Source: Mesoaciditoga lauensis cd-1655R = DSM 25116 (GTDB lineage: Bacteria; Thermotogota; Thermotogae; Mesoaciditogales; Mesoaciditogaceae). Taken from it: a stretch of 34,738 nucleotides of DNA. The notes beneath the pieces are model-generated. The model was not told where the DNA came from. It worked only from the letters and a program-made list of their open reading frames with translations, and searched no databases. The translations under genes and the position numbers were made by a program. Of the stretch, positions 7,410-34,738 are shown piece after piece (positions within the stretch are counted from its first letter, which is position 1; every line of letters begins with the position of its first letter). The stretch is from contig NZ_JQJI01000024.1 of the NCBI RefSeq assembly GCF_000745455.1, forward strand, positions 1 to 34,738, given 5' to 3'.

Positions 7410-7441
7410 AAAATGGGAGAGAAAGACGAAGAAAAACGTAA

Positions 7442-7626
7442 TTAATCAAAACACGCGCCAGCACGGATTCACTCTTTTATCCATCTTACGACTCAAAAAA
7501 CGAGGCACGCTCAGACACTCGTCCGTGAGTGCTTCGCTTTCTCAACACATCCGTGTGTTTTCCAACCTCGTTTTTTATGAGTCTCCAGATGGAAAGTTCA
7601 TAAGTGCCGGAAAGTGTTTCAATAAA
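7442..7626 (+). repeat. Family B nested palindrome, copy B2
   Basis: A 185-bp tandem neighbour of B1 with a period of 292 bp. Hairpin 1 is CACTCGTCCGTGAGTG (7516-7531), with two A-T pairs of B1 replaced by G-T wobbles. Hairpin 2 is AACACATCCGTGTGTT (7544-7559). Ends TTAATCAAAACACGCGCC and GTGTTTCAATAAA are inverted repeats. Confidence 0.83.
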
Positions 7627-7647
7627 GGGAAGAGGGAAGAAGAAAAA

Positions 7648-7704
7648 ACTCTGTTATTTCGCATCTTGTACGGCGTCTTCATACGTTTTGACAGAAACTT
7701 TAAA
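7648..7704 (+). repeat. Family C right arm following B2
   Basis: A second copy of the 7354-7409 segment (ACTCTGTTATTTCGCATCTT ... GACAGAAACTTTAAA). Together with B2 it forms the second repeat unit of this array. Confidence 0.72.
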
Positions 7705-20069: not shown

Positions 20070-20956
20070 GCAAGATAGCTTTGATGATAATTCTGGCGTC
20101 TTTAATGGTGAGCGTAAGCGTTTTCGCGTTCGCGGATTTAGGGGTGGTTTCAGCTTACGCGTCGCAGGTTATAGAAGGGCATAGAGTGGTGGTCGAGGAA
20201 ACGGGAAAGACCACGAAAGTTAGATATGAAACAATTTTAAGAGATGGTCATGATGAGATAGTGAAAGTCGTCGCTCCAGATTTTTTTGAATGGGCTTATT
20301 TAAATGGAAAAACGTACGTTGTTTTTGGGAGGGAAATGAAAAGATCTCCGGCTCCGATAATCGATGCGGAGATGCTTTTTTTTAAGTGCCTTTCTTCCAC
20401 TCCCACGATTTTGTCAACCGCTGATATAGATTACAATGGGAAAAAAGCTTACAGAATAGAGGCAAGGGATGAGAGCGCAACTTATGTTGGGGTATTCCTT
20501 CTCCCGTCGCTTTTGCTTGTCAAATTGAATGTCCAGCATAAAAGCAAAAAGATAACACTGACATACGATGCCATTAAAAAAGTGCCTTCTCTTTACTTTC
20601 AAAAAGTTATAAGCAGCTTTAAAATGATAAACACACCACCAAGCACGATGGAAGTTGAAGTGTGGAAAATGGTGTACCATCTTGACAATGTTAGCGTGAC
20701 TTCCATAAAAGTGAACAACATTTCCATAGTTCTGGTTCATGGAATGGCGAAAAATGTGGGAGAAATGGTAGTGTACTTGTTTCCAAAAAGTGATAAGATC
20801 TCAACTACAAATTTGATTTCACAGTTTAAATCAAAAGGGCTTTCTTCCATAAGTGCAGAACAAAATGGGATAAGCATGGTATTTGTTTCGGCTACAAAAG
20901 ATCATGCCAGCTTCAAAAAGTGGGTAGAAAATGTACTGAATCACACTTCATTTTGA
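20066..20956 (+). CDS. Exported RseB/LolA-like sigma-regulatory protein
   Basis: A 296-residue exported protein. The signal peptide is about 1-23 (KIALMIILASLMVSVSVFAFA). The mature part resembles the two-domain RseB/MucB architecture: an N-terminal LolA-like beta-sheet half (VRYETILRDGHDEIVKVVAPDFFEWAYLNGKTYVVFG) and a smaller C-terminal domain (about 200-296). No catalytic motif is seen. It follows the sigma and anti-sigma genes, with its TTG overlapping the anti-sigma stop (TTGA). I infer that it binds the periplasmic part of the anti-sigma or senses lipid/envelope intermediates. Similarity is at architecture level only. Confidence 0.65.
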   Translation: MSKIALMIILASLMVSVSVFAFADLGVVSAYASQVIEGHRVVVEETGKTTKVRYETILRDGHDEIVKVVAPDFFEWAYLNGKTYVVFGREMKRSPAPIIDAEMLFFKCLSSTPTILSTADIDYNGKKAYRIEARDESATYVGVFLLPSLLLVKLNVQHKSKKITLTYDAIKKVPSLYFQKVISSFKMINTPPSTMEVEVWKMVYHLDNVSVTSIKVNNISIVLVHGMAKNVGEMVVYLFPKSDKISTTNLISQFKSKGLSSISAEQNGISMVFVSATKDHASFKKWVENVLNHTSF

Positions 20957-20969: not shown

Positions 20970-21044
20970 GTCATTATGTGTGTCAATGTTACAAAGCATT
21001 TCAAAAAGGGGCTAAATCTTCACTTTAAAGTACTTGTCAGAACG
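20970..21044 (+). repeat. Family A element, truncated left end (A4)
   Basis: GTCATTATGTGTGTCAATGTT ACAAAGCATTTC continuing to AAGTACTTGTCAGAACG. This matches the first 75 bp or so of the family A copies at 5931 and 22889. The rest, including core and right end, is absent. It ends 3 bp before the pelF stop codon, between the convergent RseB-like gene and pelF. Confidence 0.78.
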
Positions 21045-21046
21045 CT

Positions 21047-22444
21047 TCAATTTCTAATTTCTAATACTTCCTCATACATCTTTTTATATGAGTTTATCAT
21101 CTCTTCAAGAGTGTACTTCTTTCTTACGATCCTCTTCCCATTGGCAGAGAAAAATGAGGCTAATTCTTTTTCTTTATGGATTTTTAAAATTGCTTGAGCC
21201 AATCTGGTGTAGTCTTTAGGCGGTACCACAAAGCCGCTTTGGCCTTCCTCATCTTCAACGAGCTCTTTGCACGCTCCCACATCGGTTGCAACTACCGGAA
21301 TGCCAGCTGCCATTGCCTCTAAAATAACAAGAGGTTGTCCTTCGGAAATGCTACTCAAAAGCAAAACATCCATGATCGGATAATAGTCCAGAACGTTGGC
21401 CTTCCCCACAAATTCGACCACATCTTGAAGATTTAAACTTTCAACCAATTCCAGGCAAAACTCGTAATACTCTGGTTCTTCATCAGAAGGACCTATTATG
21501 AGGAATTTTACATCTTTTAATTCTACCGATACCAATTTCACCGCTTTCAAAGCCGTTTTTAAGTCTTTTATAGGGGTTATCCGTCCCACAAAACCAATGA
21601 TGAATCCTTCGTGTTTTTCCTTTTTAACGTCAAATTTCTCCACATTTATACCGTTTGGTATTACCCCCATTTTTTTCTTGCTGGCTCCAAGTTCTAATTG
21701 AAAAATCTGATTTTTTTTGAAAAGGGTTGTGAGAAAATCGGTTTCTCTGTAAGAAACAGCACTTATAAGTTTGAAGAGTTCTATCCAGGGTGCCTTGTAA
21801 ATTTCCGGTATGAACCTTGAAGTTATGATCTCTCTTTCTCTTTCGCGATGATATATGCCATGCTCTGTGATAATCACTTTGGAGTTATACCTGTACTTCC
21901 CACTGATGGCTTTTAAAGAAGCGTATCCTGTGGTGATCGAATGATATATATCACATTTTGGGGGAGGTGCCACGGAGAATGAATTCACTATTGGCAGAAA
22001 CAATCCTTTAACGGTCCAAAAATATCTCGTAAATCCTTCATCCGGCAAGTAACGATGGTAAACATCTATCATTGCATCCCAGAATTCCTTTGTTTCCATT
22101 ACTTTTAGAAAATCATTTTCAACCATTAGATGAAGAATCTCTATGGCGTTGTCTATTCTAGTTGCCCAGTTTATATCTATAAGATTTCTTATCTTTGAAG
22201 AGAGAAGGTTGGCATCTTTTACCTTAGAGTTTTTTTGCGGGAAATAGGAAAAGAGAGATTGAGACCATATTTCCGAAACATTTGGTGGGATTTCGTAAGC
22301 AAACTTTTTATCTTCTTCACGTGGGCCAAGGTATATGATCTTAAACTCTATCTCAGGTAAATTTTCCATCAAGGTTTGTAGCCACGAAGAAACCCCTCCC
22401 ATCACGTAAGGATAGGTTCCTTCCACTATAACTCCAACTTTCAT
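21047..22444 (-). CDS. pelF: Pel polysaccharide glycosyltransferase PelF
   Basis: Cytoplasmic GT4-type glycosyltransferase of 465 residues. In Pel systems PelF polymerises UDP-activated N-acetylhexosamine into the Pel chain, handed to PelG. Visible features are EGTYPYVMGGVSSWLQ (GGVSSW, typical of PelF/DUF3492), ITEHGIYHRERE near residue 200, VGRITPIKDLKTALKAV, and the GT4 E-x7-E motif in SEGQPLVILEAMAAGIPVVATDVGACKELVE. The ATG overlaps the stop of the upstream small membrane-protein gene. It is transcribed divergently from the rest of the pel genes, which is unusual since known pel loci are generally co-directional. Its 3' end abuts a truncated repeat element. Confidence 0.92.
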   Translation of the reverse strand: MKVGVIVEGTYPYVMGGVSSWLQTLMENLPEIEFKIIYLGPREEDKKFAYEIPPNVSEIWSQSLFSYFPQKNSKVKDANLLSSKIRNLIDINWATRIDNAIEILHLMVENDFLKVMETKEFWDAMIDVYHRYLPDEGFTRYFWTVKGLFLPIVNSFSVAPPPKCDIYHSITTGYASLKAISGKYRYNSKVIITEHGIYHREREREIITSRFIPEIYKAPWIELFKLISAVSYRETDFLTTLFKKNQIFQLELGASKKKMGVIPNGINVEKFDVKKEKHEGFIIGFVGRITPIKDLKTALKAVKLVSVELKDVKFLIIGPSDEEPEYYEFCLELVESLNLQDVVEFVGKANVLDYYPIMDVLLLSSISEGQPLVILEAMAAGIPVVATDVGACKELVEDEEGQSGFVVPPKDYTRLAQAILKIHKEKELASFFSANGKRIVRKKYTLEEMINSYKKMYEEVLEIRN

Positions 22445-22839
22445 TTCTTTTCACCACTTAGCACATTCATAATTTCAAAAGCAAGTTTTTTCTCTTTGGG
22501 AGTTCCATTTAAAAGAAGAAATTTTGGGTCGTTGGCTAGCAAGTATTTGGAAATGGCTTCATTGTTCACACCGGCTTTGTACAGTTCTTCGGCTCTATAA
22601 ATCACCAAGCTTTGCGTGTTTAAAATCACGTTGAAATATTCCAAAGATTTCTTCATATCCCCGAAATTCATAGAGGCATCCAAGTTTTCTATTGCGTACA
22701 CAAAGTCGATCGGTTTATCACCGCTTAATTTCATATTTCTCTTTCCATTGAGCAAAAGAACAAACACAATGGCCAGGGATGAAAACACCACGAATAGAAT
22801 AATTTTGCGCTTACTCACATTTTTCACCTCTTCGCTCAT
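22441..22839 (-). CDS. Small membrane-anchored protein upstream of pelF
   Basis: A 132-residue protein I do not recognise. A basic N-terminus (SKRKI) is followed by one membrane helix (about 13-31, ILFVVFSSLAIVFVLLLNG). The soluble domain has short helices (YAIENLDASMNFGDMKKSLEYF; LYKAGVNNEAISKYLLAND), suggestive of a TPR-like fold. No lipobox or catalytic motif is present. Its stop overlaps the pelF start (ATGA), so it is probably made together with PelF and may anchor or scaffold it at the membrane; that is inference. The ATG at 22839 follows AGGAG by 10 nt. A GTG seven codons later, 6 nt after GAGGTG, is a real alternative. Confidence 0.7.
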   Translation of the reverse strand: MSEEVKNVSKRKIILFVVFSSLAIVFVLLLNGKRNMKLSGDKPIDFVYAIENLDASMNFGDMKKSLEYFNVILNTQSLVIYRAEELYKAGVNNEAISKYLLANDPKFLLLNGTPKEKKLAFEIMNVLSGEKK

Positions 22840-22888
22840 ATTTTACCATCTCCTGAGAATCCCGCAAGCTCACATTGCAGATTAACAT

Positions 22889-23249
22889 CTCACATTGTGC
22901 GTCAATATTACAAATCATTTCAAAAAAGGATTAAACTTCACCCTCGAAGTACTTGTCAGAACATATGAGCTTCCATCTGGAGGTTCAAAATATGAGGTTG
23001 AAAGGCACAGGATGTGCCGAGAAAGCGAAGCACTCATGGATGAGTGTCTGAGCGTGCCTCATATTTTGAATTGTAAGACGGACAAAAGAGCGAATCCGTT
23101 CTGACAGTACTTCGAAAAAACGCCTTGGCCGCTTGAAAAGCGGATCCTAAATCAAAAACGTTGTACTCAAATGTTGCTCACATGTTTTCATAAAAAATTT
23201 TTGTAATGTCCCTTGTAATATCTTTCGTAATGTTCACGCACAGCATGAG
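22889..23249 (+). mobile_element. Family A palindromic element, full copy (A3)
   Basis: A 361-bp element with terminal inverted repeats CTCACATTGTGCG and CGCACAGCATGAG. It is flanked by a perfect 6-bp duplication TAACAT (22883-22888 and 23250-23255). The inner stem TTCAAAATATGAGG pairs perfectly with CCTCATATTTTGAA. Core hairpins are GGCACAGGATGTGCC (23004-23018) and CACTCATGGATGAGTG (23031-23046). It fills the gap between the divergent pelF and pelA-like operons. Confidence 0.88.
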
Positions 23250-23263
23250 TAACATGATAAAAT
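23233..23263 (+). promoter_or_regulatory. Possible hybrid promoter of the pel operon formed with the A3 end
   Basis: TTCACG (23233-23238) inside the right terminal repeat of A3 and TAAAAT (23258-23263) in flanking DNA are 19 bp apart. The start codon is at 23271, so the transcript would have almost no leader. Weak but recurrent (compare A2/ksgA). Confidence 0.35.
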
Positions 23264-23270
23264 AGAATCG

Positions 23271-24167
23271 ATGAGGTATTACAAATACGTTCTCACGGTT
23301 TTACTGACCATTTCAATTTTAGTATTAAACGGGTGCACAAATGCCAATGGAGTCAAAAACTCTAAGACATGGCTATGCCAATTTCAGAATTTTTCTCCTT
23401 CCTTAATCTCAAAAACACATTTTGACGTTGTTGTGATAGATTACTCTTACGATGGAAGCGACGCAGAAGCGTTAAAACAAGAGGAAATTGAAAAGATGAA
23501 AAGCACAGGTAAGACCGTTCTCGCTTATATGAACGTTGGATACGCCGAAGAATGGAGATTCTACTGGGACAAGATAAAGGACGCTACTTTTGTTGGAAAT
23601 AACGATACGAGGTGGCCTGGTGAACACCTGATCTTGGATTTTGATACTCCAAAATGGGAAAGTGTAATTCAGCAATATGTGAACAAGATAAAAAAAGAAG
23701 GATTCGATGGAATTTACTTGGATGGTGTAAACGCTTATGAATCATTTCAAGATGAGAAAAAGTATGCTGATGAAATGATAGCACTCTTAAAATATGTAAG
23801 AAAATGGCTGGGAAATGAAGGGAAAATTTCTATACTAAACGCCTACGGCCTTTACAAATTTGATCCATCAATTGCGAATTTAGTGAATTACCTGAGTGTA
23901 GAAAGCCTTTTTTATTTGAGAACACGAAAACGAAAAGAACCTTACTACTCCAATATTTTAAACGAAGTAAAGCTATTTCTCGAAAAAGGTGTGAAGGTGC
24001 TTTCTGTTGATTATGTTGATGACGGAAGTGGATATAAAGGTGAGAACGTCGAAAGAATCAGAGACTACGTGAAGCTTGCTAGGGAGAATGGACTCATTCC
24101 ATATGCCGCCAGAAGCAATATGAAATTGAACAATTTGAATGTCATTCCAGGCATTCAAGGAGAGTGA
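23271..24167 (+). CDS. GH114 polygalactosaminidase-like lipoprotein (PelA hydrolase half)
   Basis: A 298-residue predicted lipoprotein. The signal peptide ends in the lipobox LNGC, with acylated Cys22. The mature part is a TIM-barrel GH114 domain (endo-alpha-1,4-polygalactosaminidase, related to the Thermotoga TM1410 family). It has VVVIDYSYDG, VLAYMNVGYAEEWRFYWD, LILDFDTPKW and GFDGIYLDGVNAY, the region holding the family's catalytic acids. In Pel-producing bacteria this activity is the N-terminal domain of PelA, which cuts the galactosamine-rich polymer. Here it is a separate protein, followed by the deacetylase half. Almost no 5' leader is available, since element A3 ends 21 bp upstream. 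Confidence 0.88.
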   Translation: MRYYKYVLTVLLTISILVLNGCTNANGVKNSKTWLCQFQNFSPSLISKTHFDVVVIDYSYDGSDAEALKQEEIEKMKSTGKTVLAYMNVGYAEEWRFYWDKIKDATFVGNNDTRWPGEHLILDFDTPKWESVIQQYVNKIKKEGFDGIYLDGVNAYESFQDEKKYADEMIALLKYVRKWLGNEGKISILNAYGLYKFDPSIANLVNYLSVESLFYLRTRKRKEPYYSNILNEVKLFLEKGVKVLSVDYVDDGSGYKGENVERIRDYVKLARENGLIPYAARSNMKLNNLNVIPGIQGE

Positions 24168-24172
24168 TTTAC

Positions 24173-26365
24173 GTGAAGGTAAAAGTAAGTGTTTTCGTTT
24201 TAGCGGTACTTTTTGTCAGTGTGTTCTTTTCCAACACGCTTTTACTGTATAAAGGATCAGAACAAGGATATGGAAATTCTATACTGAAGAGGTACGTTGT
24301 GCCTGTTTTGCAAGAAAACAACGAGAACTACAAGCTTGTAGATGTAGAAGCCACACAAGTGTCTTTTAAAGGTATTGATTTTGTCATAAGCTGCTATTAT
24401 TCTTCAAAGATGAAAGATGCAGATAAATATCTCAAAAAGCTCTCTTTTTTTCTCATGAATGGTGGTAAATTATTCATAATAAACAACATAGGAGCATCGA
24501 TGAATGAAAATGGGGAGTTGGTTTCGACTTCTGAGCTGAACGCGGTTTACAATTTTCTGGGCATTTCTTACAAGGGCGGATGGAAAAGCGCAAACATCCA
24601 AAATGTGGATTTTGATCGTGAGTACATTCATCATCTTCCCATTTATGGCAAACGTGGGGTAGAATTTTACACCGTTTTTTCAAAAATGGTTGATGTCATC
24701 GAAAGTGTAAAAATAGATGGAAAAACATACCCGCTTATCATGTTGGGACCACGTGGGGGTGTTTCACTTTTTAATTTCGCATTTGATTCAAGCGGAAAGG
24801 CAGTTCTGGATTTTTCCAAACTCATTTCCGCTTTTTTAATTGGAAATTTGAGTATGCAAAACAGGGTACTTCTCATTGGAAAAGATGAGAACGTCGAAAA
24901 AGCACTGAGTTATGCATTGATACCTTACGATATCTCAAGCAAAGTGAACGATAACGTTCAAAGATATATGGCTATTGTGGAAATAAACGGTCATATCCCT
25001 ATTCAAAACGCTTTGCTTATGAAATACGTATCCGCTGGTGGCGTTTTGATGGTCGCTAGCGATGGAAATGAAACATCAAACGTAAAATCGGCAAAGATAA
25101 ACACAAGCGTTTTCCCACTACCTCCCAATTTTGAACTGCCTTTGTATTCATCTTTGAAAATCATGAAACCTTATCCAAATTCCACAGTTTTGGTCAGCTC
25201 TTCCCAAGACGGGATTCCTCTTGTTTGGAGTTTGAGAGTAGGAAAGGGAAAGATCATATTTTATCCAAAAGGAATGTTGCAAAAATCGTTAAGAGGTGTC
25301 TTTCTTCAGACACTCGTATCGAATGTAGAAAACTCAATTCAATCCATAGTGAATTCGTACACGGTTTTCATAGACGATTTTCCACTTCCATCGTATGGAA
25401 TAAAGAGAGATATGATAACGAAAGAATTCGGTGATGTCACGGATGGAGAATTTTATTACGATATTTGGTGGAAAGACGTGGAAAAAATAGGAAAAGAGAT
25501 GAATTTGAAATACACCACGGCATTTGTTACAAGTTACAACGCGAAAAATAGTTGGCCGTATGACTTTTCCAGCTTACTCTTAACACCTTATCCACTTCTC
25601 GAAATGAAGAGCATAGAAAAAGACGGATATGAGATGGGATTACATGGGTACAATCACCGTTCACCAATAGCACAAAATTGGAATCTTACCAATTTAGAAA
25701 ATTCTTACAAAGCCCTGAAGGCCTTTGTGAAAATAGCATTGGGAGAAAATTACAGGCCAGTGAGTTTTGTGGCACCAAACAATTTGATAGACGATGAAGG
25801 ATTGAAGGCGTTGAAAGATGTTTTCCCTTCCCTGGAACTTGTTGGCACTTCATACGATGCCACTGGAACGTTCAGTGAATATAAAATAGTAAACGGTGTC
25901 GTTGTACTTCCGCGAACGACCGCTGGATATTACCCTGTGAACAAGTTGTTGAAAGATTCGATTTCATCTGTCATGAATTTTGGAACTTACCAATATTTCT
26001 TTCATCCAGATGACCTGTTTTCTTCAGATAGAAATCCATCTCATGAGAGCTGGGATGAAATGAAAGAAAGTATGAAAGAGTTTTTAAGTGATATGCAAAA
26101 TTATTATCCTTGGCTTGAAAATCACTACGCCTATGAAGCGGCAAAGATATTCAAAATTTATCTAACGCAAACGCCATCTTACAAAAGAGACAAAAACGAG
26201 GTAGAAGTTTCCTTGCCATATAACGCTGATATTCCACGATATTTCATGTTTAGATCGTCGGGAAAATTGAATATAGAAGGTGGGAAAATACTTTACAGAT
26301 ATCAGAAATCGAATTTGTATATAATAGAGATGACTTCACGTGTTATGATAATAAAAGTAATTTGA
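24173..26365 (+). CDS. DUF2194 polysaccharide deacetylase (PelA deacetylase half)
   Basis: A 730-residue exported protein with an N-terminal signal or anchor (about 5-25). Residues 30-390 form an alpha/beta region resembling a Rossmann/glutamine-amidotransferase-like fold. The C-terminal half is a NodB-like deacetylase: Asp401-Asp402 in FIDDFPLP, HGYNH (His491 and His495) giving the metal triad D/H-x3-H, then FVAPNN and FFHPDD. This fits DUF2194, associated with Pel clusters, and should N-deacetylate the nascent polymer outside the cytoplasm. The start is GTG 24173, about 10 nt after AAGGAG. The GTG at 24164 sits too close to the SD. The SD lies within the GH114 gene, so the two are coupled. 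Confidence 0.82.
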   Translation: MKVKVSVFVLAVLFVSVFFSNTLLLYKGSEQGYGNSILKRYVVPVLQENNENYKLVDVEATQVSFKGIDFVISCYYSSKMKDADKYLKKLSFFLMNGGKLFIINNIGASMNENGELVSTSELNAVYNFLGISYKGGWKSANIQNVDFDREYIHHLPIYGKRGVEFYTVFSKMVDVIESVKIDGKTYPLIMLGPRGGVSLFNFAFDSSGKAVLDFSKLISAFLIGNLSMQNRVLLIGKDENVEKALSYALIPYDISSKVNDNVQRYMAIVEINGHIPIQNALLMKYVSAGGVLMVASDGNETSNVKSAKINTSVFPLPPNFELPLYSSLKIMKPYPNSTVLVSSSQDGIPLVWSLRVGKGKIIFYPKGMLQKSLRGVFLQTLVSNVENSIQSIVNSYTVFIDDFPLPSYGIKRDMITKEFGDVTDGEFYYDIWWKDVEKIGKEMNLKYTTAFVTSYNAKNSWPYDFSSLLLTPYPLLEMKSIEKDGYEMGLHGYNHRSPIAQNWNLTNLENSYKALKAFVKIALGENYRPVSFVAPNNLIDDEGLKALKDVFPSLELVGTSYDATGTFSEYKIVNGVVVLPRTTAGYYPVNKLLKDSISSVMNFGTYQYFFHPDDLFSSDRNPSHESWDEMKESMKEFLSDMQNYYPWLENHYAYEAAKIFKIYLTQTPSYKRDKNEVEVSLPYNADIPRYFMFRSSGKLNIEGGKILYRYQKSNLYIIEMTSRVMIIKVI

Positions 26366-26381
26366 AAAAGGTTGATGAAAA

Positions 26382-27764
26382 TTGGCAGGGATAGGATTTA
26401 AACTACAAAGGATGTTGGCAAAAAACACACTTACTACCACTGCGATGGCTTTGCTTTATTCGGCGTTGATTTCAGCAGGGCCATGGCTTATCATGTCTTT
26501 GAACGTTTTCTTCATTCAATATTTTTCAAAGGAAATAAACATCGAATTCTTTAAAATCTCTCTGGCCTATGCCTTCATATTTTCGACCGTTATAGACGGT
26601 TTCTTCAGTTTTGTTATAAACAGAAGAATATCAGACCTAGCATACGCCAATAATACCCATCAGATATACAGAGAGTATTCTGCCAATGTATTTTTGATTT
26701 TTTCCATAGCCGTCGCTGTTGCGTTTTTCTTCTATTTTTTCCATAGGGGATATACCGTTTGGCAAATAATTCTTCCTTCTTACCTATTTGTAACCCTCTC
26801 CGTACTTTGGATCCAAGTCATATACGCTTCCATGATAGAGAAATTCTCCTATCTCATCTTTTCTTTCGTTATTGGGAATGCTTTTTCTCTTTTGTCTATA
26901 GCATTTATCCATGTAAATGAAGCTTGGACTTACTTGCTGTACGATATAGGAATTGGTTTCATAGTTTACGCTTTGCATTTCATCATATTCAAGAACCTTA
27001 AATCTGAGGGGTTCTCGTTTTCCGTATTTTCGCAAATGAAAAAGTATTGGGAGAACATGCTTGTAGGGCTTTTTTACTATTCTTCAATTTGGATTGATGA
27101 TTTTGTGGCATGGTTCTTCTTGGGAAAGAATTTTTACAACGGTTACAGACTTGCGCCTTCATACGATATTCCGATGTTCCTTTCTTATCTTTTCATAATT
27201 CCAACGATGATCCTTTTTGTCATAAACATAGAAGTTGGATTTTACGAACAGTACAAATCTTTCTACAACTTATTGGAACATAATGGAACGCTTGAAGAGA
27301 TCAAAAAGAAGAAAAAACTCATGGATATGTATCTCGGGCATGCCATTTTGATGGTTTTTGCCGTTCAAATAGTCTCTTCTTTTGTGGGATTGATAATAAG
27401 CATGCCAATGGTGGTATATTTGAACCTTCCCCCCGAATCGTTAGGCATATTGCGTTTGGGAATTTTGGGAGCCACTTTTAACGCGTTTTTCTTGTTTTTC
27501 TTGTTGATAACATTCTATTTTGATTTTAGAAAAGTGGCATATCGTGCAACCGCGATTACTCTCTCAATAAATTTCGGTCTTTCGATTTTAACCACAAAAA
27601 CGTACCCAGCACTTGGATTCACCGTATCCTTTTTAATCGGGACAAGTTATCTGATGGTTGAATTTTTTAAAAGATATGATTCGCTCATTTACGTTGAATA
27701 CACAAGACAAAAAAGCACGTTGAAAATCGGAAAGGTGAAGGTATGGAAAAATGAAAAAGCGTAG
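26382..27764 (+). CDS. pelG: Pel exporter/flippase PelG
   Basis: A 460-residue polytopic membrane protein with about 12 predicted helices, of the PST/MATE-like exporter superfamily. The N-terminus AGIGFKLQRMLAKNTLTT and the following LISAGPWLIMSLNVF are characteristic of PelG, which moves the PelF-made polymer across the inner membrane. It starts with TTG (26382) about 10 nt after AAAAGG. An ATG 7 nt upstream is out of frame, and the MAGIGF start matches other PelG proteins. It lies 16 nt after the deacetylase gene and overlaps the start of the PelD-like gene. Confidence 0.93.
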   Translation: MAGIGFKLQRMLAKNTLTTTAMALLYSALISAGPWLIMSLNVFFIQYFSKEINIEFFKISLAYAFIFSTVIDGFFSFVINRRISDLAYANNTHQIYREYSANVFLIFSIAVAVAFFFYFFHRGYTVWQIILPSYLFVTLSVLWIQVIYASMIEKFSYLIFSFVIGNAFSLLSIAFIHVNEAWTYLLYDIGIGFIVYALHFIIFKNLKSEGFSFSVFSQMKKYWENMLVGLFYYSSIWIDDFVAWFFLGKNFYNGYRLAPSYDIPMFLSYLFIIPTMILFVINIEVGFYEQYKSFYNLLEHNGTLEEIKKKKKLMDMYLGHAILMVFAVQIVSSFVGLIISMPMVVYLNLPPESLGILRLGILGATFNAFFLFFLLITFYFDFRKVAYRATAITLSINFGLSILTTKTYPALGFTVSFLIGTSYLMVEFFKRYDSLIYVEYTRQKSTLKIGKVKVWKNEKA

Positions 27765-28953
27765 GTATCTAACAATTTCTTTGGAAACGGCTTCGTTAAC
27801 TGCTTTTATATTGTTGATAGACGTTATAGGAAAGCATGAAGGATTCTTCAATTACTCTTTCAACCCTTACTGGATAACTGTTTTTTTGGCCAGCGTATGG
27901 TGGGGCTTGGATGCATTTCTGATAAGCTCGACAGAATTTATGGTAGCGCTGATGTTTTCATTTTACTTTCAAAAGATGCCGCTTGATCCCTTCACCTTCT
28001 CATCCGCTTTGACGATAGGAGCCGTCTTTGGGGCGTTGTTCGGAATGGTGGGAGAAACTCATAAGCGTAAGATATTGAGACTGACCTACGAAATAGAAGA
28101 GAAAGATGGAAAAATATCAGAGCAAGAAAATACCATAAATGAAATGCAACGAACGCTTGAAATGCTAAAAGAAAATTTATTCTTGGAAGGAAATGGTCTT
28201 TCTCTCATTTTTCAGCGCCTGCGTGAATTGGAGGTTTCAGACGCAGAAGAGATGCTTTCAAGATTTGTTGAAGTGCTTTCAGATATCTTTGAGGTGAAAT
28301 CGTTATCCATTTACAAAGAGAAAAAGGGATTTTTGAGGTTTGTCGTGGGAAAGGGAAAAAGGCACTTACCCAACTCTCTAAAACCAGAGGATTCTTTGGT
28401 GATAAAGGAAGCGTATAAAAAGGGAATAGGACTCATATACGACGTACTTCTCTCTGAGGAAATCAAAGAGTATGAACCTTGGGTGGCTGTTTTGATAGGC
28501 GAACCGGGAAATAATGAAGGCATCATCGTAATAGAAGACGTGGACAAACTTTCACGCCCCTTTGCGGATTATATGTACGCGATAGCGCAGTGGTTTCATG
28601 CCAATTTTGAGAATGCAAAATTGATAACTTCGCAATCTGCCTTTAAGCATAAGCTAACCGATGGCACGTGGGACGAATTTTATTACAAAAAAATGAAAAA
28701 CATTTACGAAGAAAGAATGAAAAAATTTGGGATTCCATATGCTGAGCTATGCTTGGAAGTAAACGAAAAAATCATCATAGGTTTAATACAAGAATTCAGA
28801 AGCGATGATTTTTCTACCATTGTGAAAAGAGAGGATGGTAAGGTTACACTGAAAGTGCTGCTTTCGGTGTGTGATGATAAAAATAAGGAGTTGATTTCCA
28901 ATAGGCTCAAAAACAAGTATGAAGATAATATATCACCTCTTGATGATTGTTAA
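27751..28953 (+). CDS. pelD: PelD-like c-di-GMP receptor
   Basis: A 400-residue membrane protein with the PelD order. Four N-terminal helices (about 8-105) are followed by a coiled coil (KRKILRLTYEIEEKDGKISEQENTINEMQRTLEML, about 110-145), a GAF domain (about 160-285) and a C-terminal degenerate GGDEF domain (about 310-385). The GGDEF catalytic motif is replaced by KREDGKVTL, so no cyclase activity is expected. The upstream inhibitory-site motif RxxD is intact as Arg350-Ser-Asp-Asp353, in the spacing used by PelD to bind c-di-GMP. It should switch Pel synthesis on when c-di-GMP rises. It overlaps both the pelG and pelE-like genes. Confidence 0.82.
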   Translation: MKKRRYLTISLETASLTAFILLIDVIGKHEGFFNYSFNPYWITVFLASVWWGLDAFLISSTEFMVALMFSFYFQKMPLDPFTFSSALTIGAVFGALFGMVGETHKRKILRLTYEIEEKDGKISEQENTINEMQRTLEMLKENLFLEGNGLSLIFQRLRELEVSDAEEMLSRFVEVLSDIFEVKSLSIYKEKKGFLRFVVGKGKRHLPNSLKPEDSLVIKEAYKKGIGLIYDVLLSEEIKEYEPWVAVLIGEPGNNEGIIVIEDVDKLSRPFADYMYAIAQWFHANFENAKLITSQSAFKHKLTDGTWDEFYYKKMKNIYEERMKKFGIPYAELCLEVNEKIIIGLIQEFRSDDFSTIVKREDGKVTLKVLLSVCDDKNKELISNRLKNKYEDNISPLDDC

Positions 28954-29773
28954 CGGCGTATTTGGCGTCGTAAACGTTTATCTAGCAGTAGATGATAAAA
29001 TCAAAGCTTTGAATTTCGCGATCTTCGCGGCCAATCTGATCGTGCTTTATGCAATTCGTCGTGATATATCATCCGTTGTTGTGGCGGTTTTAACATATCC
29101 ACTGGGTCTGTTCACCCCTATTTGGATAAATCGCGAACCCTTTTTCAAATCTTTCTGGAAGGAAGAAAAAGGTTACGGAAAGTTCAGGAGCTCCAAATAT
29201 TTAAATAGCATGCCATTAAAGGTAATTTCCAAACTTGGAAGCGTTGCCCAAAAGAAAGCCGCAATATTGGAAATAAAAGAACTTGTAAAAAAAGGCATTG
29301 AAGTAAAGGACAACATGAAAATGCTCACGCAGTTTCTTTCAAGTGAAAATCAAGACGTAGCGCTTTACGCCTCTGAAGCGATAAACGAAATAGAAGGTTA
29401 TTATGTGGAAGAAATCGCAAAGTTAGAACATGACTCAAAACCAGAAGCCGTTGTAAAATTCTGTTATATGGTATTGAACGTGATAAAAACAGATTTGATA
29501 GTTGGACGTTTGAAGGATTATTATGAAAACGTTGTTGTGGAAAAAGCCGAATTGATAAAAGAGTCCCATCCTGTTGATTATCATATCATCATGTATGAGG
29601 CAACTTCAAACATTAAATATCTTGAAGAAGGATTTGAAGAAACTTCTTCTGACAAGCTTCTCTCACTTCTTTTTGTCCAAACTGTAAAGGAAAGAAAATA
29701 TACCATGGCTCACGAAATTGCGAGCCAATTCCCCGAAATAGTGGAAAAGATAACGAATGTGAACTTGTTTTAA
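28919..29773 (+). CDS. pelE: PelE-like membrane/helical-repeat protein
   Basis: A 284-residue protein. Two or three N-terminal membrane helices (about 3-22, 29-46, 50-68) precede a cytoplasmic all-helical region (about 100-284) with HEAT/TPR-like repeats (LTQFLSSENQDVALYASEAINEIE; EAVVKFCYMVLNVIK). This matches PelE, which in Pel systems complexes with PelD and PelF at the inner membrane. It overlaps the 3' end of the PelD gene by 35 nt. Sequence similarity is too weak for certainty; architecture and position (after pelD, last in the operon) support the call. Confidence 0.68.
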   Translation: MKIIYHLLMIVNGVFGVVNVYLAVDDKIKALNFAIFAANLIVLYAIRRDISSVVVAVLTYPLGLFTPIWINREPFFKSFWKEEKGYGKFRSSKYLNSMPLKVISKLGSVAQKKAAILEIKELVKKGIEVKDNMKMLTQFLSSENQDVALYASEAINEIEGYYVEEIAKLEHDSKPEAVVKFCYMVLNVIKTDLIVGRLKDYYENVVVEKAELIKESHPVDYHIIMYEATSNIKYLEEGFEETSSDKLLSLLFVQTVKERKYTMAHEIASQFPEIVEKITNVNLF

Positions 29774-29803: not shown

Positions 29804-31162
29804 TTACTTGTCTATTGGCATTCCCAACGCATCTTCTGCGCTCTGCATCACTATTTCGGATATCGTTGGATGAGGATGGATGTGTTCAACAAGCTTTTCG
29901 AGTGTAAATCCGTTTTGGACTGCTAAAACACCTTCCATAAGTATTTCCGTTGTCATCGGGCCAACTGCCGTAAAACCAAGTATCACTCCGTTTTTATCGC
30001 TGAGTATCTTGGCAAATCCTTCATTTGATTCCAAAGTTCGAGCCCTTCCCAGAGCACTCATCGGAAAGACACCCTTTTTGTACTCTATTCCTTTCTTTTT
30101 CAGTTCATCTTCTCCTTTACCCACCATTGCGATCTCCGGCTTCGAGAACACAACGCTTGGCACGGCCCTGTAATCTATCTCCACTTTTTTCCCGTTCATG
30201 TTGCTTACCGCCACAATACCCTCACGTGATGCCACATGTGCCAACATGTATTTTCCATTTATATCTCCTGCGGCGTATATATTTTCTATGTTTGTTCTCA
30301 TACTAAGATCCGTTATAACATTTCCTCTCTTATCCAATTCTATTCCAAGCGATTTCACATCGTCAAAAACGTTTGATTTTCTTCCAACGCTTAAAAGTAT
30401 CTTGTCAAATTCGTCTTCAAACTTTTCTTCTCCCTCAAAGGTGACAAGATATTTGTCATGCTTTTTCTCAACGGAGAGAGTCTTGGTTTTGACATGAAGC
30501 TGTATTCCACGTTTTTTCAAGGAGTTGGAAACGACTTCCACCACATCTTCATCCATTGCCGGAAGAATGTGATCCATTATCTCCACGATGGTAACTTGGC
30601 AATTGAAAGAGGAAAAGAAAGTTGCCATTTCCACTCCTATAACGCCACCACCAACTATTAACAACTTTCGAGGGATTTCATTTATCGAAAAAATTTCATC
30701 GCTTGTTAGAACTCCATCAACATCAAATGGAGGGAATTTTATAGGATGTGAGCCTTGAGAGAGGAGCAGATATTTTGATTCTACCTCTTTATCTCCTATT
30801 TTTACCCTATTTGTGCTTTTAACTTCTGCATGTCCGTTAAAGAAATCAACGGAATTCTTTTTAAGAAGAAACTCGATTCCCTTTCTGTTTCTCAATACAA
30901 TCCTATTCGTGCGCGAAGCCACTTTTTTAATATCTATTCCTGGATTTTCAACGCTTATTCCAAACTTTTGGGATCTTTTGATTTCATCAAAGAGTTCAGA
31001 GGATGCGAGCCATGCCTTTGTGGGAATACAACCAACATTTGTACATGTACCACCCAAAAATCTATCTTCAGCTATGCCAACCTTCATTCCTAATTGGGAA
31101 GCCCTAATAGCAGCCACGTACCCGGCTGGCCCTCCCCCTACAACGAAAAGATCGTATGTCAT
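29804..31162 (-). CDS. lpdA: Dihydrolipoyl dehydrogenase-type oxidoreductase
   Basis: FAD-dependent pyridine-nucleotide disulfide oxidoreductase of 452 residues that interconverts lipoyl dithiol/disulfide with NAD(H). It has the FAD-binding VVGGGPAGYVAAIRA, the redox-active GGTCTNVGCIPTK (Cys40, Cys45), the NAD-binding VGGGVIGVEMATFFSSF, the second FAD motif NIYAAGDINGKYMLAHVA and C-terminal HIHPHPTISE with the catalytic base His. The SD GGAGGC precedes the ATG. It is the last gene of the sulfur-relay operon, and its partner is presumably the lipoyl-carrier protein just upstream. No pyruvate dehydrogenase or glycine-cleavage genes are nearby. Confidence 0.95.
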   Translation of the reverse strand: MTYDLFVVGGGPAGYVAAIRASQLGMKVGIAEDRFLGGTCTNVGCIPTKAWLASSELFDEIKRSQKFGISVENPGIDIKKVASRTNRIVLRNRKGIEFLLKKNSVDFFNGHAEVKSTNRVKIGDKEVESKYLLLSQGSHPIKFPPFDVDGVLTSDEIFSINEIPRKLLIVGGGVIGVEMATFFSSFNCQVTIVEIMDHILPAMDEDVVEVVSNSLKKRGIQLHVKTKTLSVEKKHDKYLVTFEGEEKFEDEFDKILLSVGRKSNVFDDVKSLGIELDKRGNVITDLSMRTNIENIYAAGDINGKYMLAHVASREGIVAVSNMNGKKVEIDYRAVPSVVFSKPEIAMVGKGEDELKKKGIEYKKGVFPMSALGRARTLESNEGFAKILSDKNGVILGFTAVGPMTTEILMEGVLAVQNGFTLEKLVEHIHPHPTISEIVMQSAEDALGMPIDK

Positions 31163-31201
31163 GAATCTAGCGCCTCCTTTTTATGATAAATCACGTCATA
31201 T

Positions 31202-31207
31202 ATTATA
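31202..31207 (-). promoter_or_regulatory. Possible internal -10 box upstream of lpd
   Basis: A perfect minus-strand TATAAT in the 96-bp gap between the lipoyl-carrier gene and lpd. No convincing -35 is seen (TTGGTG is 20 bp away). If real, it would uncouple lpd from the operon. Confidence 0.3.
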
Positions 31208-31258
31208 CACGGCAGTGGCTTTCTTTTCACCAATTTCGATGGATGCCTTCTTAAGGCT

Positions 31259-31600
31259 TTATTCCTCATCCTTTAACTCTTCTATCTCCCTTGAATTGCT
31301 TAATTCGATCTTGCACAGCCAACCTTTTCCCTCTGGATCGGTGTTGAGAATTTCCGGATTGTTTTCCACTTCTTCATTTACAGCTATAACCTTCCCACTT
31401 AGTGGTGAGGGGATATCGTTTTCGGTTTTTATGGCTTCTATTGAGAAAAGTGTATCACCTTTTTTTATTTCTTTTCCAGGTGATGGAAGATCTACATGAA
31501 CTATATCGCCTAATTCATCGAGCTTTTGCTTTGTTATTCCAACAATTCCCACGTTGCCTTCTATCAAAATGTATTCGTTTGTGTCAGTGTACTTTTTCAT
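31259..31600 (-). CDS. GcvH-like lipoyl carrier protein
   Basis: A 113-residue lipoyl-domain protein of the GcvH superfamily. The lipoylation site is Lys58 in FSIEAIKTENDIPSPLSG. NVGIVGITKQKLDELGDIVHVDLP and the C-terminal NNPEILNTDPEGKGWLCKIEL are GcvH hallmarks. The N-terminus is about 10 residues shorter than typical GcvH. In some sulfur oxidisers, GcvH-like lipoate-binding proteins (LbpA) are encoded with TusA and DsrE homologues and serve sulfur metabolism instead of glycine cleavage. The position here, between the DsrEFH-like genes and Lpd with no gcvT or gcvP, suggests such a role. The SD GGAG is 7 nt from the ATG. Confidence 0.85.
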   Translation of the reverse strand: MKKYTDTNEYILIEGNVGIVGITKQKLDELGDIVHVDLPSPGKEIKKGDTLFSIEAIKTENDIPSPLSGKVIAVNEEVENNPEILNTDPEGKGWLCKIELSNSREIEELKDEE

Positions 31601-31616
31601 CTTTCTCTCCTTCTTT

Positions 31617-31889
31617 CTATCCTATGAACTTCTCTTCTTTTTCTATTATGTCCATAAAAGAAGAGTAATCTATGAGCTTTACATGTGAGTCTTTTTCCGA
31701 GTAGCCCCTTGCTAAAAAATCTTCTTTAATGGCATAAATTTTCCCCTTAACCTTTTTTTCAATATCTTCTTTGAGAGCCCAAAAAACACCGTTTTGTATC
31801 AACACCACACTATCTTCTTCCTTAGTCGTGTTTATTTTTATCCTCTCAGCTGGATTATCAAATCCGTACTTTATCAAAACAAGCGCCAT
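31617..31889 (-). CDS. DsrH/TusB-family sulfur-relay protein
   Basis: A 90-residue single-domain protein. VVLIQNGVFWALKED, GKIYAIKEDFLARGY and VKLIDYSSFMDIIEK match the conserved blocks of DsrH/TusB, the smallest subunit of the DsrEFH/TusBCD heterohexamer. It contains no cysteine at all, so it cannot itself carry a persulfide. The longest frame starts at a GTG (31898) that directly follows the SD (GAGAGG). The ATG at 31889, 9 nt downstream, gives the usual N-terminal strand MALVLIKYG. It lies between the DsrF-like gene and the lipoyl carrier in the same operon. Confidence 0.78.
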   Translation of the reverse strand: MALVLIKYGFDNPAERIKINTTKEEDSVVLIQNGVFWALKEDIEKKVKGKIYAIKEDFLARGYSEKDSHVKLIDYSSFMDIIEKEEKFIG

Positions 31890-31902
31890 TTTTATCACCC
31901 TC

Positions 31903-32259
31903 TCACATGTATATCACGTAATCAAACGAATGGAAAAAATCGCTTAAATCCCTTTCGTCTATGATCTTTGCTCCGAAATTTTCATCTATATTCTTAACTT
32001 TGTACTTTTCAATATGCTCTTTTACCCCGTAAACTGGAGTTTCATACCTTTTTATGAATCTATGAACTATCTTAATTGGAAGCAAATTCAAACTTTCCGG
32101 CTTTGTGTCGGCAGACAAAGAAGCTGATGCGCTTTCCATAAGCAAGACAGCTGGTTCTATGTCTTCGCCGTACATTCCAAAAGCCGTTCTAAACGCTTCA
32201 TTCGTCCATATGGATCCCACCGGCGCTTGGTAGACAACAAAAAGCACTTTCTTTTCCAC
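31903..32259 (-). CDS. DsrF/TusC-family sulfur-relay protein
   Basis: A 118-residue protein with KKVLFVVYQAPVGSIWTNEAFRTAFGMYG at the N-terminus, AVLLMESASASLSADTKP in the middle (compare the VFF..DGV...LPGQ.P block of TusC) and the C-terminal SFDYVIYM resembling NYDVIL of the family. It lacks cysteine, as expected for a structural subunit. An ATG at 32268 directly abuts the SD (AAGGAG), so the GTG at 32259, 9 nt downstream, is preferred. It follows the DsrE-like gene by 15 nt. Confidence 0.74.
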   Translation of the reverse strand: MEKKVLFVVYQAPVGSIWTNEAFRTAFGMYGEDIEPAVLLMESASASLSADTKPESLNLLPIKIVHRFIKRYETPVYGVKEHIEKYKVKNIDENFGAKIIDERDLSDFFHSFDYVIYM

Positions 32260-32274
32260 ATCTCTCATCTCCTT

Positions 32275-32631
32275 TTAAGCCATAAGGCTTATGAACCTAT
32301 CCGATTCGTATATCAATTCGGCAAGCTCCGGAACACCGCTAGGTACAGCACCTTCTATGATCATGTCTTTGGTTACCCCTCTGTAATCCATACATATTCC
32401 GCATATATCAACTTTTAGCCCTTTTTCAGCTATCATTTTTTCTAAAGTCTTTGGAATATTTCTGTCTTGCCTTACGGGCTTAACCAATTTGTTCGAAGCC
32501 AACGCCGAATCGCAAAAGAGAAATATTTTTACTTCATGCCCTCTTTTCAAAGCCTCATCGGCTATTTTAATTGCCGTATCTAAATCTTCGTAAGTGTAAG
32601 GGGGATTCATAACTTGAATTGTGATTTTCAT
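32275..32631 (-). CDS. DsrE/TusD-family persulfide carrier
   Basis: A 118-residue DsrE-like protein: MKITIQVMNPPYTYEDLDTAIKIADEALKRGHEVKIFLFCDSAL followed by VDICGICMDYRGV. Cys77 and Cys80 sit where DsrE/TusD (catalytic Cys78) binds the transferred sulfur. With the DsrF- and DsrH-like proteins it should form a heterohexamer that receives persulfide sulfur from TusA. The longest frame begins inside the transporter gene. The SD GGGAGG followed by ATG at 32631 (8 nt) sets the start, 2 nt after the transporter stop codon. Confidence 0.83.
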   Translation of the reverse strand: MKITIQVMNPPYTYEDLDTAIKIADEALKRGHEVKIFLFCDSALASNKLVKPVRQDRNIPKTLEKMIAEKGLKVDICGICMDYRGVTKDMIIEGAVPSGVPELAELIYESDRFISLMA

Positions 32632-32633
32632 AT

Positions 32634-33641
32634 TCATGACCTCCCGTAAATAATCCATGTCATAAACCAGTTACCAAGGATGAAACATATGCCGGCCACA
32701 ATTGAGCCAATCCCAAGTTGTGGTATGCCCGTGAAGTAATTACCGATGTTACACCCAAAAGCGAGGGAAGCACCTAATCCCAAAAATGCACCACCTATGG
32801 CCGTTTGAAGATAGACAATGCCCCTTTTGGGGACTCTGAATTTGAATTCTTTTGAAATAACAGCTGAAATGAACGCTGCGATGATTATTCCTAAAACCTC
32901 TGCACCTTCCCAATTTATCAAGTGCCCTTGCGTGTAAGCCTGAGTTATACTTATCCAACCACCAGTTATTCCAAGACCGTAATGCCTACCCGTAATGTAA
33001 CTTGACCAGAATGCGAAAGCCGCTATTGGAACAAGCCATAGTCCTATTGCCTTCCATCCCATTTTTGCGTCCGGCCGTTTTGATGTTTTAGTTCCGAAAA
33101 CATACCATAAGAGTAGCCCTGAGAATATCAACGCAATAATCCAATGGTTCACATGGAAAAGAGTCGCCAAGGTGGGGCCGACTTCTTTGTTGTAGAGATT
33201 TGCAGATGTTGTGGGCGTTATCTTGACAGTGAAGGGAGAGAACCATTTTAAAAACCAGTTCAATCCTCCGTGTTTTACCGCTGTTGCCGTGAGAGCGTAT
33301 GTAAGAGCCGCTACCCAGGATGTCGTGTTTCCTTCTCCAACTCTGTATGTTGTTCCACTGGCACAACCTCCGGCTAAAACCATCCCCATTCCGAAAATCA
33401 ATCCTCCAATTATCTGCCCCAGCAAATTAAGTGGTTTCGGGTTCATTCTTATCCATCCAAATTGGGCCATCAAGGGGAAAACGATCAATTCTATTGCCAT
33501 AGCAAGGGTTATCGCTTTGAACAGAAAATTATCTTTCATCAAATAGAGATCTCGAAATGCCGAGTTAAAACATACCCTACCGCGTTGCAATACCCAACCA
33601 AAAGCTAAACCGGTTATCAACCCAAGAATTATCGCTTCCAT
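32634..33641 (-). CDS. YeeE/YedE-family thiosulfate/sulfur-compound transporter (TsuA-like)
   Basis: Inner-membrane protein of 335 residues with about nine or more helices and twofold internal symmetry. Three conserved cysteines sit in family motifs: Cys24 (RGRVCFNSAFRD), Cys93 (GGCASGTTYRVGEG) and Cys297 (FGCNIGNYF). They correspond well to the three cysteines lining the thiosulfate path in TsuA of Spirochaeta thermophila (22, 91, 293). It is encoded directly after a TusA-like protein, as TsuA is with TsuB, which supports thiosulfate import. A strong SD (GAGGAGG) precedes the ATG. Confidence 0.9.
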   Translation of the reverse strand: MEAIILGLITGLAFGWVLQRGRVCFNSAFRDLYLMKDNFLFKAITLAMAIELIVFPLMAQFGWIRMNPKPLNLLGQIIGGLIFGMGMVLAGGCASGTTYRVGEGNTTSWVAALTYALTATAVKHGGLNWFLKWFSPFTVKITPTTSANLYNKEVGPTLATLFHVNHWIIALIFSGLLLWYVFGTKTSKRPDAKMGWKAIGLWLVPIAAFAFWSSYITGRHYGLGITGGWISITQAYTQGHLINWEGAEVLGIIIAAFISAVISKEFKFRVPKRGIVYLQTAIGGAFLGLGASLAFGCNIGNYFTGIPQLGIGSIVAGICFILGNWFMTWIIYGRS

Positions 33642-33663
33642 TTTTATCCTCCTCTACTTTTTC

Positions 33664-33915
33664 TTACTTTTTGCCTCCGACTTCTATGAGGATCCTCCAT
33701 TCGCTTGGGCCTGTTTCTTCTATGGATAAAACTTTGTGCCCTGCTTTTTCGGAATTGGCCGGAATTCTTTCTTTGGATAGAGGGTAATCAATGAGAACTT
33801 CCAATATTTCTCCGGGTTTCATTTTCTTTAAAGCTCTTTTCGCTTCCACATCAGGTACAGGACACACTTCACCTCTTACATCAACTGTCTTTGTTACTTT
33901 GTAATCATTTTCCAC
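33664..33915 (-). CDS. TusA/TsuB-family sulfur carrier
   Basis: An 83-residue TusA-fold protein with the signature DVRGEVCPVPDVEAKRALKKMKPGEILEVLIDYPLS. Cys18 of the CPxP motif would hold the persulfide or take sulfur from thiosulfate delivered by the adjacent TsuA-like transporter. The longest frame's GTG at 33924 is inside the SD AGGAGG. The next GTG (33915), 8 nt downstream, is the start. It is the first gene of the operon TusA-TsuA-DsrE-DsrF-DsrH-GcvH-like-Lpd. Confidence 0.9.
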   Translation of the reverse strand: MENDYKVTKTVDVRGEVCPVPDVEAKRALKKMKPGEILEVLIDYPLSKERIPANSEKAGHKVLSIEETGPSEWRILIEVGGKK

Positions 33916-34184: not shown

Positions 34185-34357
34185 TTTGAAGTTTTGTCAA
34201 AACCGATTCAGACGTATATCCATACAAGATGCTCATAACAGAGCCCGCTGCATACAAACATCCTGTTAGATTCGCTTTCTCGGCACGTCCTGTGCCTCCA
34301 ACTCTGTTATTTCACATCTTGTATGGCGTCTTCATATGTTTTGACAGAAACTTCAAA
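34185..34357 (+). repeat. Family C nested palindrome, full copy (C1)
   Basis: Long imperfect arms (TTTGAAGTTTTGTCAAAAC... ATACAAGATGCTCATAACAGAG and CTCTGTTATTTCACATCTTG ... GACAGAAACTTCAAA) enclose the same type of core. Hairpin 1 is replaced by a different short one, AACATCCTGTT (34257-34267). The constant linker TTCGCTTTCTC follows, then hairpin 2 GGCACGTCCTGTGCC (34282-34296). No credible gene is present. Confidence 0.78.
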
Positions 34358-34391
34358 AAAAGAGGGGAGAGAAAGGAAGAGAGAAGCATAA

Positions 34392-34570
34392 TTAATCCGA
34401 AACACCAGCCAGCACGGATTCACTCTTTTATCCATCTTATGACTCAAAAAACGAGGCCCGCTCAGACACTCGTCCGTGAGTGCTTCGCTTTCTCGGCACG
34501 TTCTGTGCCTCCAACTCTGTTATTTCGCATCTTGTATGGCGTCTTCATATGTTTTGACGAAAACTTCAAA
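34392..34570 (+). repeat. Chimeric repeat: family B left arm, family C right arm
   Basis: The left half (TTAATCCGAAACACCAGCCAGCACGG ... GACTCAAAAAACGAGG, written here in parts) is family B. After hairpin 1 CACTCGTCCGTGAGTG (34467-34482) and hairpin 2 GGCACGTTCTGTGCC (34495-34509), the right half switches to CTCTGTTATTTCGCATCTTG of family C. The outer arms therefore cannot pair. The unit is 211 bp long, 81 bp shorter than the 292-bp unit at 7165. Confidence 0.78.
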
Positions 34571-34602
34571 AAGGGAGAAGAGAAAGGCGAAGAAAAGCAT
34601 GA

Positions 34603-34738
34603 TTAATTCGAAACACCAGCCAGCACGAATTCACTCTTTTACCCATCTTACGACTCAAAAAACGAGGCACGCTCAGACACTCATCCATGAGTGCTTCGCT
34701 TTCTCAACACGTCCGTGTGTTTCCCAACCTCGTTTTTA
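34603..34738 (+). repeat. Family B nested palindrome, cut by window end (B3)
   Basis: Left arm TTAATTCGAAACACCAGCC, hairpin 1 CACTCATCCATGAGTG (34678-34693), hairpin 2 AACACGTCCGTGTGTT (34706-34721) and the first bases of the right arm (CCTCGTTTTTA). The array continues beyond the window. Confidence 0.8.

Follow-up and report, generated by a model that had tools for sequence, protein, structure and literature searches.

Seven genes on the minus strand (33915 to 29804) of a 34,738-nucleotide stretch of DNA, contig NZ_JQJI01000024.1 of Mesoaciditoga lauensis (the whole stretch is called the window here), combine parts of several described sulfur systems. In order, they encode TusA/TsuB, TsuA, DsrE, DsrF, DsrH, a GcvH-like lipoyl protein and dihydrolipoamide dehydrogenase (Lpd); the host, a member of the Thermotogota, is heat- and acid-loving. 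The first related system is thiosulfate uptake by TsuA and TsuB in Spirochaeta thermophila and Escherichia coli. TsuA imports thiosulfate, and S. thermophila YeeD, a close homologue of the window TusA, splits thiosulfate on a single cysteine, with H2S released when a thiol reductant is present; the cellular acceptor of the TsuB-bound sulfur is stated to be unknown (PMC11073785). The window has the same transporter and partner carrier and adds DsrEFH and the lipoyl protein/Lpd pair alongside, which offers candidates for that acceptor. The second system is the yeeE/dsrE/tusA unit of Thermotoga maritima (TM0979-TM0983 region), a species of the same phylum with the same five-gene core, in which TM0979 and TM0983 match the DsrH and TusA of the window. 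Extracts of T. maritima showed cytoplasmic NADH-dependent thiosulfate reduction, yeeE, in one unit with dsrE and tusA, was up 42.6-fold on thiosulfate, and the proposed reductase is NSR, which acts on S0, polysulfide and thiosulfate and whose induction accompanies that of yeeE (PMC9431562). In contrast to the window, Thermotoga-type cassettes have neither a GcvH-like gene nor Lpd. The third system is sulfur oxidation by sHdr, in which LbpA lipoyl proteins act (PMC6067878); together with the dsrE3A-dsrE2B-tusA-hdr-lpd genes of Metallosphaera cuprina (PMC4175335), it shares with the window a GcvH-fold lipoyl protein, TusA and DsrE-type proteins, and the archaeal regions of this kind share Lpd as well (PMC4175335, PMC6067878). 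It differs in that the window's DsrE belongs to another subfamily (an E-F-H trio with a CGIC motif), the genome has no HdrB/CCG protein, and Mesoaciditoga is a reducing, fermenting host in which the direction of electrons is probably opposite. What is new is not the parts but a lipoyl protein/Lpd pair joined to the TsuAB-DsrEFH core. The original prediction knew of no such described system; we found no paper in the open-licence full-text literature linking Thermotogota DsrE cassettes with GcvH or Lpd, whereas the core cassette itself is known and is the one induced by thiosulfate in T. maritima.

The best single explanation for the locus, which we consider about as apt to be right as wrong, is that electrons would pass from NADH through Lpd and the lipoyl carrier to the CGIC motif of DsrE and leave as sulfide, as a reductive branch of TsuAB/DsrEFH sulfur transfer. 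The TsuB-TsuA-DsrEFH thiosulfate-sulfur cassette would have gained a lipoyl-protein reducing arm. Sulfane sulfur would pass from TusA to Cys77 of DsrE, and Cys80 would expel it as sulfide and form a disulfide. Reduction of this disulfide, or of the persulfide itself, would fall to the dihydrolipoyl arm on the GcvH-like protein, and NADH would recharge the arm through Lpd, so that the net reaction would be S2O3(2-) + NADH + H+ > HS- + HSO3- + NAD+. Such a route could serve as a cytoplasmic electron sink or as a sulfide supply during fermentation. In assays cited in PMC6067878, dihydrolipoate takes sulfane sulfur from rhodanese. From the gene content, the conservation, the insertion beside the native lpd and the repeated association of Lpd and GcvH with the cassette, we infer the biochemical steps. 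The broader proposal, which we put forward tentatively and with somewhat less than even confidence, is that some Thermotogota may have a soluble, metal-free, NADH-driven thiosulfate reductase made of TsuAB-DsrEFH with a CxxC DsrE, a GcvH-derived carrier and Lpd, a reductive counterpart of sHdr assembled several times independently. If true, lipoic acid would have a second role in sulfur energy metabolism, in the reducing direction.

The comparison set was 103 Thermotogae genomes, in which the nearest relative was a Mesoaciditoga metagenome-assembled genome (MAG) with cassette proteins 94-99% identical to those of the window. A window-type DsrE was found in 41 of the 103 genomes. Almost every such locus on a contig that extends far enough also has TusA, TsuA, DsrF and DsrH next to this DsrE, and the core TusA-TsuA-DsrEFH cassette is not unique to Mesoaciditoga. 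The block has been kept together across the Thermotogae, so the gene arrangement is not chance. Lpd was found no more than 1.5 kb downstream of the cassette in 23 of the 39 loci examined (25 of 41 with the window and G064), and a GcvH-like gene was found in 9 of the 39 loci and in the window, an eleventh lying at a contig start beside an ArsR-TusA-type regulator (G032). None of the cassettes examined had GcvH without Lpd. When the genes around the cassette were grouped into 205 clusters (38 genomes, 7 families), only the core genes (counted here with the ArsR-TusA protein), Lpd, GcvH and a MATE-like transporter recurred in at least three families: cassette-linked Lpd occurred in six of the seven, an extra GcvH-like gene in four, and the MATE-like transporter in three genomes. 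With families treated as independent, a rough estimate puts the probability of such recurrence by chance at 1e-12 for Lpd and at 1e-7 for GcvH. The Lpd tree requires eight changes of cassette label, no fewer than five of them forced by well-supported branches; the Mesoaciditoga copy groups with its own family, and the operon copy of one f10 genome (G026) is nearly identical to the second lpd of that genome. The operon GcvHs need four changes and were rejected as one clade (approximately unbiased test, p-AU 0.026, with long branches present), and with this a single ancestral recruitment of GcvH was rejected. Gene order also varies, being GcvH-Lpd in Mesoaciditoga and some Thermotogaceae and Lpd-GcvH in f7 and f10 genomes, and Dictyoglomus-type cassettes end in Lpd, an ending not shared by two Anaerolineae cassettes. 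The genome G076 has Lpd-GcvH immediately after an ArsR-TusA gene, with no DsrEFH (L133, G076:C5). Judged from the sequences compared, the cassette is probably horizontally mobile and the Lpd/GcvH pairing was made several times independently. Because Lpd and GcvH-like genes recur beside DsrEFH in several lineages of fermenting, thiosulfate-reducing anaerobes, a functional link is favored; this recurrence is the strongest evidence for such a link, and the long branches call for caution. Two further loci were seen: an Lpd-GcvH pair beside ArsR-TusA without DsrEFH, preceded by a DsrH remnant that marks a decayed cassette (L123, G075:C19:1-6000), and a DsrEFH-GcvH-Lpd cassette resembling those of Thermotogaceae on a 4.6-kb contig of a MAG labelled Thermoplasmata, which is probably misbinned (L118, JAGHAD010000059.1).

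The window contains three adjacent homologues of DsrE, DsrF and DsrH with an aligned active-site cysteine, the same three-subunit set as DsrEFH of type I and type II (PMC13293266) and TusBCD. The DsrE profile matches Allochromatium vinosum DsrE (2HY5_A, E 2.9e-13), with the first cysteine of CGIC aligned to the active-site Cys78, and the AlphaFold model (pLDDT 93) has 2HY5_A as its best match in the Protein Data Bank (PDB) with a TM score of 0.91. The DsrF profile, built from 22 homologues, matches A. vinosum DsrF (E 8.6e-6), and its model (pLDDT 88) also finds A. vinosum DsrF as the best PDB match (2HY5_B, TM 0.81). Unlike the described complexes, the window DsrE has a second invariant cysteine and DsrH has no cysteine, and neither DsrC nor DsrAB is present in the cassette. 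The CxxC is invariant in 60 of 60 complete homologues and reads CGIC in 58 of them. In A. vinosum DsrE and E. coli TusD, only the first cysteine is present; transfer-only DsrE/TusD proteins lack the second. In the model, CGIC lies at the end of a strand and the start of a helix. With the second cysteine, a persulfide could be split into sulfide and a disulfide, which would then need a dithiol reductant. With 56 bits against a cut-off of 89.25 for the NCBIfam TusD/DsrE equivalog, the window DsrE is, by profile score, a divergent subfamily distinct from TusD itself. The independent recruitments of Lpd and GcvH and the CxxC of DsrE both strengthen the proposed NADH-lipoyl-DsrE route.

The GcvH-like protein shares its fold family, the lipoyl lysine and Lpd as partner enzyme with the H-protein of glycine cleavage. 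It scored 109.5 bits with the gcvH equivalog TIGR00527, below the cut-off of 115.85, and passed the cut-off of the broader NF002270. Of 38 positions that are near-invariant in Thermotogae GcvH, seven are changed in the Mesoaciditoga copies, mostly near the lipoyl lysine or the HEW motif, compared to a mean of 0.4 and a maximum of 2 in canonical copies. The f11 operon copies have lost 13-18 of these positions and their genes abut or overlap dsrH; the lipoyl lysine is kept in all operon GcvHs. The window copy is not the only GcvH of its genome: a separate gcvT-gcvH-gcvPA-type operon lies on another contig (C64), and the window gene is beside neither gcvT nor gcvP. The hosts of an operon GcvH carry another gcvH as well as the glycine-cleavage P-protein, so glycine cleavage can do without the operon copy. 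In the free GcvH tree, the Mesoaciditoga operon copy lies near the Lpd-linked copies of Petrotogaceae on a long branch, which would speak against a recent copy of the genome's own gcvH, yet a grouping with the gcvH of its family was not rejected (p 0.144). A search for lipoate-assembly genes found one lipoyl ligase/transferase-type protein and LipS2, which makes lipoylation in this genome plausible; for LipA, there were only weak matches, to MiaB/RimO-family proteins. With its separate glycine-cleavage operon, its lipoylation genes and no HdrB/CCG genes, the genome does not show the pattern that would have spoken against the original prediction. The synonymous divergence of the GcvH-like gene (31262-31600) between the two Mesoaciditoga genomes is 0.09, below the 0.17-0.43 of its neighbours.

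Lpd carries the redox motif GGTCTNVGCIPTK (CTNVGC) and the catalytic HPHPTISE, as an Lpd should, and is the sole lpd match of the genome at E<1e-40. In a genome of the same family without the cassette (G003), lpd is flanked on one side by a large gene (88% identical to that of Mesoaciditoga) and a minus-strand gene (71%), and on the other side by a homologue of the window gene at 20066-20953. In Mesoaciditoga, six cassette genes stand between that gene pair and lpd; this upstream flank was read in a sister genome (L097), since the window stops at 34738. As the cassette-less relative keeps the same lpd flanks, the comparison indicates that lpd is a housekeeping gene still at its ancestral site and that the six-gene cassette went in immediately upstream of it; Lpd is thus not an enzyme dedicated to the sulfur operon, which corrects the original prediction. 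The spacing from TusA through the GcvH-like gene is that of a tight transcription unit, followed by a 96-bp gap with a TATAAT element before lpd (Table 1). Elements resembling TATAAT also lie upstream of lpd in cassette-less relatives; promoter-type matches were at least as frequent in shuffled sequence, which makes the element suggestive only. The window lpd probably keeps its own promoter, and because of this gap and the native origin of lpd, it may be only partly in the operon. The prediction of a single operon thus holds to the GcvH-like gene and is weakened for lpd. The seven genes, their order and strand were confirmed by family, profile and structure-model matches, and the residue numbers given for DsrE and the lipoyl lysine were correct.

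Table 1. Features of the sulfur cassette and lpd in the window
Feature	Position	Strand	Basis
TusA/TsuB-type sulfur carrier, CPVP cysteine	33664..33915 (alternative start 33924)	-	Pfam TusA 83 bits; AGGAGGT upstream
TsuA (YeeE) thiosulfate transporter	32634..33641	-	NCBIfam TsuA NF052577 525 bits, cut-off 400
DsrE-type sulfurtransferase, CGIC (Cys77/Cys80)	32275..32631	-	Pfam DsrE
DsrF/TusC-type subunit	31903..32268	-	no Pfam match; profile and model
DsrH/TusB-type subunit, no cysteine	31617..31889	-	Pfam DsrH; T. maritima TM0979 1RHX E 2e-33
GcvH-like lipoyl carrier, lipoyl site Lys58 (EAIK)	31259..31600	-	Pfam GCV_H 115 bits
Probable lpd promoter, TATAAT, between GcvH-like gene and lpd	31202..31230	-	10/12 consensus match
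Dihydrolipoamide dehydrogenase (Lpd)	29804..31162	-	TIGR01350 512 bits, cut-off 409

Several observations weigh against the NADH-lipoyl-DsrE route. As Lpd is the sole housekeeping enzyme, its adjacency could be an accident of insertion in the Mesoaciditoga lineage. No Lpd was seen at 16 of the 41 cassettes, and about 30 cassettes are without GcvH. The Petrotogaceae operon GcvHs are near canonical, and one retains all 38 positions. A comparison of the two Mesoaciditoga genomes shows fast evolution of the GcvH-like gene, with a ratio of nonsynonymous to synonymous substitution (dN/dS) of 0.29 compared to 0.03 for gcvH, and purifying selection on it was not significant (p 0.15). An NSR-type flavoprotein, assigned by score class and not by direct comparison, is encoded elsewhere in the genome (C18:26736-27992). 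The acceptors listed for M. lauensis are S0, thiosulfate and cystine, those for Athalassotoga, of the same family, include thiosulfate and cystine, and the Thermotogota as a whole are said to reduce sulfur compounds (PMC7795431), yet the cassette is present in only the 41 genomes above. As it is also missing from 8 of the 10 genomes of the family that Mesoaciditoga and Athalassotoga share, thiosulfate reduction in the group probably does not depend on it. What weakens the route is that lpd is a shared housekeeping gene, that an NSR homologue is encoded and that many cassettes have no GcvH. The predicted route thus survives in part: the lipoyl protein is not the sole GcvH, no HdrB/CCG protein was found and Lpd/GcvH recur, whereas Lpd is not dedicated, the carrier is missing from most cassettes and an NSR-type flavoprotein is present.

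The alternative that survives best, though we think it rather unlikely, is that the role of the cassette stops at thiosulfate import and the delivery of sulfane sulfur. The terminal reductase would then be a separate NSR-type NAD(P)H flavoprotein, and Lpd with the GcvH-like protein would do no more than hold TusA/DsrE or other thiols in the reduced state. The activity and induction of T. maritima NSR and the cassettes of the Thermotoga type agree with this, as does the C18 flavoprotein as far as its score class goes; the repeated recruitment of Lpd and a lipoyl carrier to the cassette is left unexplained. Less probable still is a chance arrival of the cassette next to the native lpd, with the GcvH-like protein as a duplicate H-protein that drifts or backs up glycine cleavage. 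The ancestral place of lpd with its probable promoter, the raised dN/dS and the unchanged Petrotogaceae copy would fit, but the Lpd/GcvH pairing occurs in several families with differing orders and origins, the changes cluster around an always-kept lipoyl lysine and the HEW motif, and the f11 copies persist against dsrH despite their losses. In seven presumed Thermotoga genomes (L157, G097:C1:306000-309500, and six more), an NSR-type flavoprotein, an AhpD/CMD-like CxxC protein and Lpd stand in a row, with a near-constant NSR-Lpd gap of 468-484 bp, a second linkage of Lpd to sulfur reduction. Such rows could speak for an AhpD-like role of lipoyl carrier and Lpd in thiol-peroxidase or detoxification chemistry co-regulated with sulfur stress, a reading we hold to be very unlikely as the AhpD/CMD gene is not a recurrent neighbour of DsrEFH cassettes. 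Scarcely credible is the oxidative direction, which the original prediction had also allowed and in which persulfide electrons would reach NAD+ via dihydrolipoyl and Lpd as proposed for LbpA: the clustering of Lpd, TusA, DsrE-type proteins and a lipoyl carrier in sulfur-oxidising archaea would agree with it, but there is no gene in its favor here, and no HdrB/CCG protein (PF02754) was found in any of the 103 genomes, which bears out the prediction's statement on heterodisulfide-reductase genes, rules out such a partner and makes sHdr-type oxidation implausible here, and the hosts are fermenting anaerobes with sulfur compounds listed as electron acceptors.

At the upstream end of the cassette, TsuA scores above its family cut-off and has an adjacent CPxP partner, so that the pair qualifies as TsuAB by gene content. 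TsuA aligns over its full length to S. thermophila TsuA (6LEO, E 7e-106, 357 bits), and the nearest solved relatives of TusA are T. maritima TM0983 (E 5e-33) and S. thermophila TsuB (E 5e-24, 87 bits). TusA has the motif GEVCPVPD, and the CPxP cysteine is present in 41 of 41 cassette TusAs. Of the two possible starts, the predicted one at 33915 agrees better with the AGGAGGT site than the mechanical one at 33924. The genome has a single TusA gene. The second TusA of other cassettes is not YedF: it is a fusion protein, an ArsR-type helix-turn-helix joined to a TusA domain that has the CPxP cysteine, found in or beside the cassette at 33 of 39 loci (L054:6874-7461, L060:7808-8374, L061:7702-8271 and 30 more) and not in the window's genome. 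This fusion, for which we found no description in the literature, is a candidate self-sensing repressor responding to sulfane sulfur.

On the other side of lpd, relative to G003, a Pel-like exopolysaccharide cluster is inserted (21047-29773), with a DUF3492/PelF-type glycosyltransferase, GH114, DUF2194, PelG and two unassigned genes. Dispersed and tandem repeats of about 80-360 bp, 79-95% identical, lie at 618-879, 5932-6286, 7149-7704, 20977-21054, 22890-23250 and 34271-34738; they are also present on other contigs of the genus, and the end of the window falls inside one.

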